Under the pieces are notes generated by a model. That model did not search any database. It saw only the letters and a program-made list of their open reading frames with translations, and was not told the DNA's origin. A program made the translations under genes and the position numbers. From an uncultured bacterium (GTDB lineage Bacteria; Desulfobacterota; Desulfobaccia; Desulfobaccales; 0-14-0-80-60-11), in the NCBI GenBank assembly GCA_937943575.1, contig CALEAV010000019.1, positions 1-64,000 on the forward strand: a stretch of DNA of 64,000 nt, in the 5' to 3' direction. Shown here in pieces: positions 18,673 to 22,602 of the stretch; position 1 is the stretch's first letter; each line of letters starts with the position of its first letter.

Positions 18673-19045
18673 GCGCTCCTCCCCTCCTGCCTGTGGTCAG
18701 GCTGCCCCACCTCGGCGTTCTCCCGGCCGGGACCGCCTCCCCGCCGGGAATTCATACTCCCTTTTTCTGCTCCCGGGTTACAAATCTCCGCCAGCCTTTC
18801 CTCTCTTTAACGACATTCAGGCTGTAAACTTTAACCTGGTTGTAATCTCTTAGAGTAAGAAAGTTGCCGGTTGGTTTGCAGAACTGGGGCAGGAAAGTGT
18901 CGGGCTTTCGTCCTGGCAAGTCACGTCCACGGGACCCCCGTTAACCCCGCTATGGCCTGCCTGGGCGAGCTTTCCGGGCGGGACCGGCATCCCATCTCCC
19001 TATATACCCGTTTCCTCTCTGCCCGGCAAGGAAAAAATCCCGGGG
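18673..19045. other. intergenic region upstream of rfbB
   Basis: No gene recognised. The stretch around 18780-18890 is AT-richer than its surroundings and probably contains the rfbB promoter (minus), but no convincing -35/-10 or sigma-54 pair was found. Confidence 0.45.
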
Positions 19046-19693
19046 TCAGCCTCCCAGGATATAGCCGTAGAGGGACTGCACCAGGGGGTGGAGGTGGGGG
19101 CTGAGGATGCCCCCGGGAGTGAGGCGGTCCAGGAGGGCCAGCCCCAGGAGGGCGAAGGGGCCCAGGCGGGAGAGGATCCAGGCGGGCTGGGAGGGCAAAA
19201 GCCGCGCCAGGATTTCCCCGGCGGCCAGGGGCGGCAGCGGCAGCAGGTTGTAGACCGCCATGGTGACATTCACCCCCACCACCATCTCAAACACCAGGGG
19301 CGTCGCCCCAAACCAGCGCATCAGCGCCACCAGGCTGGCGGCGATATTGGCCAGAAGCAGGTTGGCCACCGGACCTGCGGCCCGGGCCAGCACGGTGTAG
19401 AGGAAAGGCCGGGAGAACCTGGCGGCATCAATGTCCATGGGTTTGGCCCAGCCAAAGCCCGCCACCAGAAAACAGAGGGTGCCCACGGGGTCCAGGTGCA
19501 GAAAGGCGATGTAGTGGTGGCGGTCCTTGGCGCCGAGGCGGCGGTCCCCCAGGAGGGCGGCCACCATGGCCTGGGCCTCGGCATTCACCAGCACGGCAAA
19601 CAAGATGGCCAGAATAAAGGAGATGACCGCATCCAGGGCCAGAGTGGCAGGATCCAGAAAATAGGGGACCGGCCAGGACTTATACGAGGGCAT
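19046..19693 (-). CDS. site-2-protease (M50B) homologue lacking the catalytic residues
   Basis: 215 residues with about five membrane helices. The layout follows the compact M50B/YwhC family: a first helix with the zinc motif, DPVGTL, GFGWAKPM, then RAAGPVANLLLA and NLLPLPPL. The zinc-binding HExxH is replaced by NAEAQ (in VNAEAQAMVAALLGD), and the usual NLLPIPPLDG reads NLLPLPPLAAG, so both metal-ligand histidines, the catalytic glutamate and the aspartate ligand are gone. It should be a membrane protein without protease activity, perhaps a substrate-binding or regulatory pseudoprotease. There is no strong ribosome site at the chosen ATG. The gene follows the OFA transporter on the same strand but a terminator lies between them. 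Confidence 0.8.
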   Translation of the reverse strand: MPSYKSWPVPYFLDPATLALDAVISFILAILFAVLVNAEAQAMVAALLGDRRLGAKDRHHYIAFLHLDPVGTLCFLVAGFGWAKPMDIDAARFSRPFLYTVLARAAGPVANLLLANIAASLVALMRWFGATPLVFEMVVGVNVTMAVYNLLPLPPLAAGEILARLLPSQPAWILSRLGPFALLGLALLDRLTPGGILSPHLHPLVQSLYGYILGG

Positions 19694-19722
19694 GGGCGCG
19701 TCGTCTTATGGTGCACAAACAA

Positions 19723-19750
19723 GGAGGCAGAGCCCGTGGGCCCTGCCTCC
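19723..19750 (-). terminator. intrinsic terminator after the OFA transporter gene
   Basis: GGAGGCAG-AGCCC pairs with GGGC-CCTGCCTCC across 19723-19750. Read on the minus strand the stem is followed by TTGTTTGTG. It lies about 40 bases past the transporter stop codon and separates it from the pseudoprotease gene. Confidence 0.75.
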
Positions 19751-19790
19751 CGGTGGGCGGCCCCGCCGCAGGGCGGAGCCGAAGGTCGGC

Positions 19791-21074
19791 CTACTCTTTG
19801 GCGTGCATGGGCCGCTTGGTCACCCAGCTGATGATCACGGCGATGATGAGCACCAACCCGGAGAGGTAGAAGGCATAATCAAAGGTGCCGTAAATGTCCC
19901 GGATGGTGCCGGCGATCCGGGCCATGAAGAACCCGAGACCCCAACCGATGAACACCAGGCCGTAGTTCATACCCAGGTTCTTGGGCCCGAAGAAGTCCGC
20001 GGTGAACGAGGGCATCAGAGCCAAGCCGCCGCCATACTGCCAGTACGCCACGCCCAAAGACACAAACAGCAGAATGACGTTGCCCGAGGCGATGATGAAC
20101 GGCGTGAGGAACAGGAACAGGGCGGAGACGATGCAGTTCAGGGCATAGGCGTTGGAGCGGCCGATCTTGTCGGAGTAGAGCCCGGTGCCCACCCGGCCCA
20201 GGGCGTTCACCGCGCCGCCGAAGGAGGGCAGCAGCCAGGCCATGGCCGCCACCGAGGGGTTGGCCTTGGCGGTCTCCGCCATCAGCTTGGCGGCGTTGGC
20301 GATGACCATCAGGCCCGACTGGGTGGTGCCGATGAACATGAGCACCAGGGCGTAGAACTGCCAGGTGCCGATGATCTCCGAGGGCGCCCAGTCGATGGCG
20401 GTGCCCACCGGGGCTGCCGGAGGCGCACCCGCCTTCACCGGCGGCGCCGGCGGCACATAGCCGGGCTCGGGCCACGCCAAAAGCGACCCGGCGATGATCA
20501 CCACGATGGCGAAGAAGATGCCCAGCCACACAAAGCTGTAAGTGATGCCGTTTTTGATGAGATAGTTGGCCAGAGGCGAAATGTAGAGCGCGGCGCCGCC
20601 GTAGCCGCCCACCACCAGGCCGGCAATGAGACCCCGCTTATGAGGGCCGAACCACTTCAACGCCGCCGGCGTCGGCGCGGCATAGCCGATGCCCATGCCG
20701 ATGCCGCCCAGGATGCCGAAGCCGATGATCAGACCGGCATAGCTTTTGGCCAAACCGGAGATGATGCAGCCGGCCGCCAGGAAGAGGCCGCCGGTGATGG
20801 CCCCCACCTTGGGACCGAATTTGTCCTGGATGCGGCCACCGGGAATCATGAATAAGGCGAAAACGAGAACGCAGATGGAAAAAGGCATGGAGGCCTGGGC
20901 GTTGCTGAGATAGACCCAACCCTCGTTGATGCCGGTCATGGGCTGACCGACCATTTTCTCGTTGATCAGGGCCTTGGCCCAGACGCTCCAGGCGTAAAGA
21001 ATACCCAGACACAGGTTGACCGCGGTTCCGGAAAAGGTAACCACCCACGCCTTGGCAGGGACTTTGTCCGCCAT
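19791..21074 (-). CDS. MFS transporter of the oxalate/formate antiporter (OFA) type
   Basis: 427 residues from ATG 21074, preceded by the ribosome site GAGGAGGG. About twelve membrane helices are visible. OFA-like features: GILYAWSVW in the first helix, MIPGGRIQDKFGPK in the loop between helices 2 and 3, GIGMGIGYAAPTPAALKWF, and GRVGTGLYSDKIGR in the second half. OxlT from Oxalobacter exchanges oxalate for formate; homologues in sulfate reducers and acetogens are often placed in monocarboxylate transport, and the substrate here cannot be told from sequence. It has its own promoter and terminator, so it is monocistronic. Confidence 0.85.
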   Translation of the reverse strand: MADKVPAKAWVVTFSGTAVNLCLGILYAWSVWAKALINEKMVGQPMTGINEGWVYLSNAQASMPFSICVLVFALFMIPGGRIQDKFGPKVGAITGGLFLAAGCIISGLAKSYAGLIIGFGILGGIGMGIGYAAPTPAALKWFGPHKRGLIAGLVVGGYGGAALYISPLANYLIKNGITYSFVWLGIFFAIVVIIAGSLLAWPEPGYVPPAPPVKAGAPPAAPVGTAIDWAPSEIIGTWQFYALVLMFIGTTQSGLMVIANAAKLMAETAKANPSVAAMAWLLPSFGGAVNALGRVGTGLYSDKIGRSNAYALNCIVSALFLFLTPFIIASGNVILLFVSLGVAYWQYGGGLALMPSFTADFFGPKNLGMNYGLVFIGWGLGFFMARIAGTIRDIYGTFDYAFYLSGLVLIIAVIISWVTKRPMHAKE

Positions 21075-21225
21075 GTAACCCTCCTCATTGTCTAAGGACT
21101 GAGTGCCAAAAAGCCCACACAACCATCGCCATATTTGAGCGCCAATGTTCCCCCGGCCTTGACCGGCCTCCTGTCACCTCCTTTCTGGGGGGCGGGCTTT
21201 CCTCGGAAGGGTGGTACTCCAATTC

Positions 21226-21255
21226 CATATTAGCGAAGGAAAAATTTTCCTGGCA
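21226..21255 (-). promoter_or_regulatory. sigma-70-type promoter of the OFA transporter
   Basis: On the minus strand TTGCCA (21250-21255) is followed after 18 bases by TATATT-like TAATAT (21226-21231). Transcription would start near 21219, leaving a leader of about 145 bases before ATG 21074. The region is clearly AT-richer than its flanks. Confidence 0.5.
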
Positions 21256-21321
21256 AGAGAAATTGACAGCCGGCTGCGATTTTCCTGTTCTGATTCCGAC
21301 CCTCTCTGTTTTGTTTCAGAC

Positions 21322-22602
21322 TCACCAGCATAACTCCCGAAAGGCCTGCACCGTGGCCTCCAGATCGGCTTCCTGGTGTGCCAGGGAGACAAACCAGGCC
21401 TCAAACTGGGAGGGCGGCAGATACACCCCCGCGGCCAGCATCCCCTGGAAGAAGCGCCGAAAGGCGGTCAGATCGGCCTTCTGGGCGTCCGCCAGGGAGC
21501 GCACGGGACCGGGGGTGAAAAACACCGTCAGCATGGAACCCACCCGCTGCAGGCAGAGGGGCAGCCCCTTCTCCCGGGCCGCCGCCTCCAGGCCCCCGGC
21601 CAGGTGGGCCGCCTTGGCCTCCAGGAGGTCATAGGTGCCCGGTTCCTGCAGGGCTCGCAGGGTGGCCAGCCCCGCAGCCACCGCCACCGGGTTGCCGGAA
21701 AGCGTCCCCGCCTGATAGACCGGCCCCAGCGGCGCCACCTGCTCCATCAGCTCCCGGCGGCCGCCGTAGGCCCCCACCGGCAGGCCCCCGCCGATGATCT
21801 TCCCCAGGCAGGTGAGGTCCGGAGTGACGCCATACAGAGCCTGGGCCCCGCCCCAGGCCACCCGAAAGCCGGTGATGACCTCGTCAAAGATGAGGAGGGC
21901 CCCCTCCCGGCGGGTGATCTCCCTTAAGCCCGGGAGAAATCCGGGTTCCGGGGGTACCACCCCCATATTCCCCGCCACCGGCTCCACGATGACCGCGGCA
22001 ATCTCGCCGGGGTAGCGCTCACAGGCCTGGCGCACCGCCTCCAGGTCGTTGTACGGCAGCGACAGGGTGAGCTCGGCAATGGCGGGGGGCACCCCGGGGC
22101 TGCCGGGGATGCCCTGGGTGAGCACGCCGCTGCCCGCCGCCACCAGGAAGGAATCGGCATGCCCGTGGTAGCAGCCGTCAAACTTGATCACCCGGGGCCG
22201 GCCGGTGACCGCCCGGGCCAGCCTCAGGGCGCTCATGCAGGCCTCGGTGCCGGAGCTCACCAGCCGCACCATCTCCAGGGAGGGCACCGCCTCACAGAGC
22301 AGCTCCGCCAGCTCCAGCTCCCCGGGGGTGGGGGCGCCGAAGCTCATACCCCGGGCCGCCGCCTCCTTAACCGCCGCCACCACCGCCGGGGGGGCATGGC
22401 CCAGAATCAGCGGCCCCCAGGAGGCCACGTAATCCAGATAGCGGTTGCCGTCCACGTCAATTACCCGGGCGCCTTCCCCCCGGGCGATGATCCGGGGGCT
22501 GCCGCCCACGGCGCCCCAGGCGCGGACGGGGCTGTTCACCCCTCCGGGCATGAGCTTCACGGCCGCCTCAAACAACCGGGTCGACTGATCACCATCCGAC
22601 AT
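21322..22602 (-). CDS. hemL: glutamate-1-semialdehyde 2,1-aminomutase
   Basis: 426 residues from ATG 22602, with AGGAGA six bases upstream; an in-frame ATG 27 bases earlier is less likely. Class III aminotransferase features: [11 protein letters not shown] at the N-terminus, [34 protein letters not shown] and the PLP lysine K268 in [16 protein letters not shown]. It makes 5-aminolevulinate in the C5 route to tetrapyrroles. The gene lies 87 bases downstream of ahbB on the same strand, so both likely serve heme synthesis through siroheme. Confidence 0.95.

Follow-up and report, generated by a model that had tools for sequence, protein, structure and literature searches.

The analysed stretch of DNA (the window) comprises 64,000 nucleotides from an uncultured bacterium of the Desulfobacterota and carries, at positions 19046..19693 of the minus strand, a gene whose product is, as judged from its sequence, a pseudoprotease, i.e., a descendant of a protease family (here, the site-2 proteases) from which the catalytic residues are gone. 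We propose that this pseudo-site-2-protease is kept in a non-catalytic role, as partner in the membrane of a monocarboxylate transporter of the OFA/SfMCT type, and give this reading a probability of roughly 55%. As the protein is inactive yet selected and its gene usually lies beside that of the importer, it probably helps or controls the importer rather than cutting proteins; both the physical contact and the assembly or regulatory role are suggested by this linkage. The strongest argument for a functional link is that it recurs where the lost motif, the transporter paralogue and the gene order are all different, while the strongest arguments against an obligate complex are ETF-linked pseudoprotease loci and transporters that occur without a partner.

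Loss of catalytic residues under purifying selection

The open reading frame, which we designate type I, starts with ATG (its coordinates include the stop codon) and encodes a 215-aa product that contains NAEAQ and NLLPLPPLAAGE. Residues 37-41 read N-A-E-A-Q (codons at 19571..19585, minus strand), where M50B proteins have H-E-x-x-H, and residues 154-158 read P-P-L-A-A (19220..19234, minus strand), where M50B proteins have P-P-L-D-G. Thus neither the three metal ligands (two His, one Asp) nor the catalytic Glu is retained, with the E of NAEAQ occupying the third (x) position and not that of the catalytic Glu. A profile-profile comparison with hhalign between 25 relatives (profile A1) and five active M50B proteins (A3) paired NAEAQ with HEVAH and PPLAA with PPLDG (probability 99.9, E 1.2e-31, 189 columns), and the replacement of HExxH by NAEAQ and of the PPLDG Asp by Ala, as described in the initial annotation, is borne out by sequence and profile alignment alike. 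Because the window protein by itself scores 12.7 bits against PF02163, under the Pfam cut-off of 27.2, its link to M50B rests on this profile comparison and on its similarity (34% identity, E 5.7e-14) to an active paralogue that the genome also encodes. Peptidase_M50 is the sole Pfam entry found for the window protein at E<=10, and 19 of the 25 A1 members match PF02163 at E<=1 (best 7.9e-7). The M50B fold, which had been called well kept, does appear to be kept in terms of sequence-profile homology over the 189 columns; it is on sequence profiles that this statement rests, since AlphaFold2 models reached a mean pLDDT of 48.8 for the window protein alone and of 42.5 with alignment A2 (window, L038 and L039).

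Close relatives of the window protein were found in 25 of 28 further genomes from its genus, family or order (G001-G028); none was found in G010, G011 (84% complete, with one short weak match besides its other match) or G015 (73% complete). A relative with 38% identity is present in Desulfocicer vacuolatum DSM 3385. Across a sample of 395 genomes of the phylum, the A1 profile set 24 genomes (242-358 bits) apart from all other matches (<=121 bits); some of the lower-scoring M50 matches that were examined are inactive too (L093, of the type II described below, and L203). Type I genes are also present in 16 of the 194 genomes sampled from the order that includes G184 (G184 and G312 themselves belong to the 24), in 4 of 39 from the order that includes G232, none of the four being new, and in G618 (L188). 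The in-depth search covered one phylum, and short peptide patterns run over wider genome contigs gave 2 loci. The type I set examined amounts to 48 loci, the window's own among them, drawn from D. vacuolatum and eleven family codes; L038 and L041, which represent the same match, were counted once, L064, a fragment without the C-terminal motif, was left out of tree and alignment, and four more loci are partial (L046, L048 and L050, with the transporter cut, and L062, with the transporter end only).

HExxH is found in none of the 48 type I members, and the LDG Asp is retained in none of the 47 that were aligned. Among these 47, the first His position holds N (38 proteins), H (6), Q, T or S (1 each), the catalytic Glu position A (46) or G (1), the second His position Q throughout and the Asp position A (44) or T (3). 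The earlier statement that every metal ligand has been replaced hence holds for the window copy but does not extend to all relatives, six of which retain the first His. By comparison, H, E, H and D are all present in 22 of 22 active paralogues, a set chosen for HExxH, from which L203, without this motif, was set aside.

Selection acts on these proteins nonetheless. In three congeneric pairs, dN/dS of the type I gene was 0.145, 0.157 and 0.148, close to the values for the active paralogue in the same three genomes (0.180, 0.099 and 0.120); dN/dS for the transporter was 0.027-0.044. A tree of 82 proteins, built quickly by a short search and with some long branches, places the 22 active proteins on one side of a branch (SH-aLRT 100) and the type I proteins on another (94); the inactive proteins together make up one side of the tree. 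That the gene is a decaying duplicate of an active site-2 protease, as the loss of catalytic residues might indicate and as orthologues with an intact HExxH would have implied, was therefore rejected and is given practically no credence: no HExxH occurs in any of the 48 type I members, frames are open and share a common replacement motif in 48 loci, dN/dS is about 0.15, and type I is set apart from the active copies in the tree. The pseudoprotease is retained by purifying selection, in line with the proposal that selection preserved the protein and not its catalysis.

The active paralogue whose presence had been suggested as a check was found in the same genome (HEVAH/PPLDG; L002, contig C23 of G000), where further PF02163 matches over the cut-off lie on contigs C7, C11 and C41. 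Its presence bears on a parallel drawn in the initial annotation, namely that with iRhoms, inactive homologues of intramembrane proteases with a regulatory role (as described in parts of PMC3149277 and PMC7554728). An iRhom-like regulator would compete with or bind an active site-2 protease or its substrates, and a candidate target is available: the active sequence was confirmed in the window's own genome and in eight relatives, and the place of the HExxH-type paralogue is that of the second match in all 18 same-order type I genomes with two listed matches. However, the linkage of the type I gene is to a transporter, and the own-genome active copy lies elsewhere, adjoining a phosphoglucomutase-like gene; we regard such a regulator as very improbable. 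The parallel stands as far as the word pseudoprotease goes, the genomic partner, which that annotation did not include, being a transporter; iRhoms also differ in having the rhomboid serine-protease fold, in being eukaryotic and in having ADAM17 or EGF-type ligands as clients.

Linkage to monocarboxylate transporter genes

Directly upstream of the pseudoprotease gene, across a 97-nt gap, lies a gene for a 427-aa protein (19791..21074, minus strand) that is predicted to be an OFA/SfMCT-type monocarboxylate transporter of the MFS; it scores 364.3 bits against NCBIfam NF049980 (SfMCT, "L-lactate MFS transporter"; cut-off 320) and matches the L-lactate transporter structure PDB 6g9x (E 2.1e-45). 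An orthologous transporter gene lies directly upstream on the same strand in 37 of the 48 type I loci, with gaps of 96-331 nt in 36 of them, the 37th being L062, where only the transporter end is on the contig. Six further loci have the order transporter, acetyl-CoA synthetase (acs), pseudoprotease; ETF-type genes precede the pseudoprotease in four, and one gene is lone. Direct linkage was observed in families f1, f2, f63, f71, f116, f125 and f138 and in D. vacuolatum, an intervening acs in f70 and f135, ETF linkage in f90 and the lone gene in f149. The D. vacuolatum locus reads acs, acs-like, transporter, pseudoprotease, and the pair is kept there with none of the other seven of nine query proteins from the window neighbourhood found nearby. 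A gene for a TetR-type regulator (Pfam-confirmed in L161 only) adjoins the transporter gene in L098, L157-L159, L161, L163 and L164, in most cases upstream on the same strand, and lies downstream of it in L139.

Several observations indicate that the association is not strict. At E<=1e-120 the transporter was detected in 39 of the 395 genomes, including all 24 with a pseudoprotease; since 15 of the 39 have no type I gene, the transporter can do without it. Among the five genomes in which the type I gene is unlinked, the transporter is encoded elsewhere in four, and no match to it was obtained in G583 (89% complete). On a quick tree of 62 transporters, in which the seven type II neighbours were labelled "without", the label "with type I gene" requires 6 changes vs 18.8 when shuffled, so gain or loss of the partner occurred repeatedly; the L043 transporter groups with the partner-less ones, yet its locus has a type I gene. 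Pseudoprotease and transporter distances are correlated over 38 pairs (r 0.62, with 0 of 2000 permutations as high), a value in which species history is uncontrolled.

Alternatively, the pseudoprotease may be a membrane protein that belongs to the same metabolic programme as the transporter (acetate or fatty-acid oxidation), with which it would be co-expressed in most lineages, and that serves another partner, e.g., the ETF-quinone step. In all four loci of family f90, genes for ETF and ETF-QO precede the pseudoprotease gene (Pfam confirmed ETF alpha in L165 and, in L100, ETF beta and ETF-QO), and the transporter lies elsewhere with acs; the 15 transporter genomes without a pseudoprotease point the same way. 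We nevertheless consider another partner somewhat unlikely, as the link to the transporter is found in 43 of 48 loci and recurs, with a different paralogue and tail to tail, in the type II proteins. As a separate observation, the transporter frame of ETF-linked genomes is about 80 aa longer (511-513 aa) in L139 (G312), L174 (G523) and L175 (G546), and in L139 an insert follows the first membrane segment.

Type II comprises divergent proteins traced via G159, in which G[CS]GF[TM]R replaces HExxH and A or T replaces the Asp. Nine members were examined (L177-L185), and in seven of the nine loci the tail-to-tail neighbour is an OFA paralogue 50-54% identical to the window transporter and over the SfMCT cut-off in the one case tested (332.1 bits); the remaining two genomes (G616 and G617) carry the same paralogue elsewhere. 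Because the genes lie tail to tail, shared transcription does not explain this link. One type II example, L141, gave no Pfam M50 match at E<=0.01, so its family membership rests on 31% identity and a profile score. HExxH has been lost in yet other ways, with motifs HGEAR, GFGFQR and QGAAQ, in L186, L187 and the congeneric L194 (G209) and L203 (G185), L193 being a fragment; no transporter was found within the 1.5-kb flanks of L186, L187 and L194, and L203 likewise has no transporter as neighbour in the stretch examined. In L187 (G615), an OFA paralogue (67% to OFA2) is located approximately 2.5 kb from the gene, on the same contig (C104).

Type II also bears on the proposal that the cavity of the former active site, where E39 and Q41 lie within the membrane, serves as a binding site for a proton or a small carboxylate, which would make the protein a sensor or a part of the transport path. 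E39 (the third, x, position of the motif) and Q41 do not vary among the 47 aligned type I proteins, and active relatives differ there (V/Y/L/M/A/C and H, respectively). All nine type II proteins, by contrast, have G at the E39 position and T/M at that of Q41, so the two residues are not a common feature of all transporter-linked members, and we deem cavity binding improbable.

A conserved hairpin and a proposed mechanism

Between the two genes of the window lies a terminator-like hairpin of 13 pairs with a T-rich tail (19722..19751, minus strand), which is conserved and covarying. Terminator-like hairpins were found in 23 of 36 direct gaps vs 0.2 expected from mononucleotide shuffles. Across the 48 loci (691,559 bases), the motif RAGGYAG...CTRCCTY has 37 gene-strand matches; 36 fall in the 460 nt ahead of the pseudoprotease start, including in loci with an intervening acs, and the hairpin precedes the gene in 36 of 48 loci. 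Over 35 distinct hairpins, aligned with the motif as anchor, which favours inner pairs, 95.0% of cells pair (86.0 when shuffled) and 45 cells change on both sides (12.9 when shuffled); seven of 12 pairs show such double changes and five never vary. A covariance model added the gaps of L042, L049 and L160 (E<=0.0075) and of L054 (E 0.92), and neither motif nor model search found the hairpin in the four ETF-linked loci or in L168, L039, L166 and L167. In a control with permuted stems, the same hairpin was also matched by two permutations that overlap it (24 and 15 gap matches), and the third best gave 4. No Rfam match was found in 19000-21400.

We read the hairpin as a conserved intrinsic terminator or attenuator at which transcription would end. 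A dense genome-wide repeat was rejected, as each of 29 genomes has 0-6 copies of the strict form and 36 of the 37 gene-strand matches to the looser form lie just before the pseudoprotease gene. A leader specific to the pseudoprotease gene was weakened as a candidate both by weak model matches in type II tail-to-tail junctions (L179, L181, L184 and L185; E 0.009-0.31) and by L131, where the motif lies <=100 nt after the transporter, the single such case among 12 transporter loci that lack a type I gene. A few matches lie at neither kind of site (L133, E 0.00046; L059, E 0.0066). The L131 transporter (G006, contig C17) is a second, partner-less copy, 77% identical to that of the window, and is followed by the conserved hairpin after 57 nt.

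Site-2 proteases hold the transmembrane segments of other proteins in an intramembrane groove. If this substrate-binding groove survives in the pseudoprotease, the protein, with its zinc site gone, may still grip a transmembrane segment, most likely one of the neighbouring transporter, and this grip could assist the assembly and stability of the transporter or set its activity. The hairpin would end most transcripts after the transporter gene (or after acs), and we propose that the partner is consequently made at a lower level; a terminator-like hairpin at this position argues against a 1:1 complex produced from one transcript.

Among known proteins, the closest are small single-domain M50B site-2 proteases such as the same-genome active paralogue, with homology over 189 columns that include the HExxH and LDG regions; the window protein differs in having neither HExxH nor the LDG Asp and in its linkage to a transporter. 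According to the relevant parts of a review of bacterial site-2 proteases (S2P), HExxH and LDG occur in all S2P (PMC10202637). Pseudoproteases are known, as is one S2P pseudoprotease from plants, EGY3, a chloroplast homologue without HExxH (PMC12389704, in part); it resembles the window protein in these respects, by description and not by sequence, and differs in being a thylakoid protein for which those portions of the paper describe no transporter link. In a review of inactive metallopeptidases (PMC11266112), counts of the terms M50, site-2, S2P, EGY3 and intramembrane were zero in the text available, and no bacterial transporter-linked pseudo-S2P family appeared in the open-licence literature among the matches listed. 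A bacterial protease homologue repurposed without catalysis is MamO of magnetotactic bacteria, which differs in having a trypsin-like domain with a metal-binding role (excerpts of PMC4794232).

With regard to the transporter, sections of PMC6573034 describe the pairing of MCT1-4 with basigin or embigin, and the study of SfMCT without an ancillary protein of this type. Basigin and embigin may be likened to the window protein by analogy, as membrane partners of monocarboxylate transporters; they belong to the immunoglobulin superfamily and are unrelated to it by sequence, and a Pfam scan at E<=10 found no immunoglobulin-type domain in the window protein. We tentatively suggest, as a possibility on which we would not yet rely, that the bacterial SLC16-like monocarboxylate importers of these anaerobes have a dedicated ancillary membrane subunit derived from an intramembrane protease, with two transporter paralogues partnered by at least two lineages of the dead protease and with a dosage set by the hairpin, which would be a counterpart of MCT-basigin reached by a different route. 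If true, this would represent a simple example, accessible to genetics, of the scaffold of an intramembrane protease having become a partner of another membrane protein, as well as an unsuspected component of monocarboxylate uptake.

Cargo of the transporter

SfMCT has been characterised as an L-lactate transporter (PMC6573034, in part). For the transporter described here, acetate is the likeliest cargo, as the same transporter is repeatedly linked to acetyl-CoA synthetase, with propionate or lactate as alternatives. The acs products of L039, L098 and L161, from loci with the order transporter-acs-pseudoprotease or acs-transporter-pseudoprotease, pass acetate-CoA ligase models, and those of L137 and L139 are also over the cut-offs of such models. 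On the opposing side, the window's own genome has no acs over a curated cut-off and two weaker matches. In family f10 (L136-L138), an acetate-CoA ligase gene (checked for L137) immediately precedes transporter orthologues that have no pseudoprotease, an adjacency that supports acetate as cargo independently of the pseudoprotease. Less favourable to acetate, finally, is the second synthetase of L166, in the D. vacuolatum-like group: its best scores were with models of propionate-CoA ligase, although they stayed under the cut-offs of these models, and it narrowly passed one cut-off for acetate-CoA ligase.
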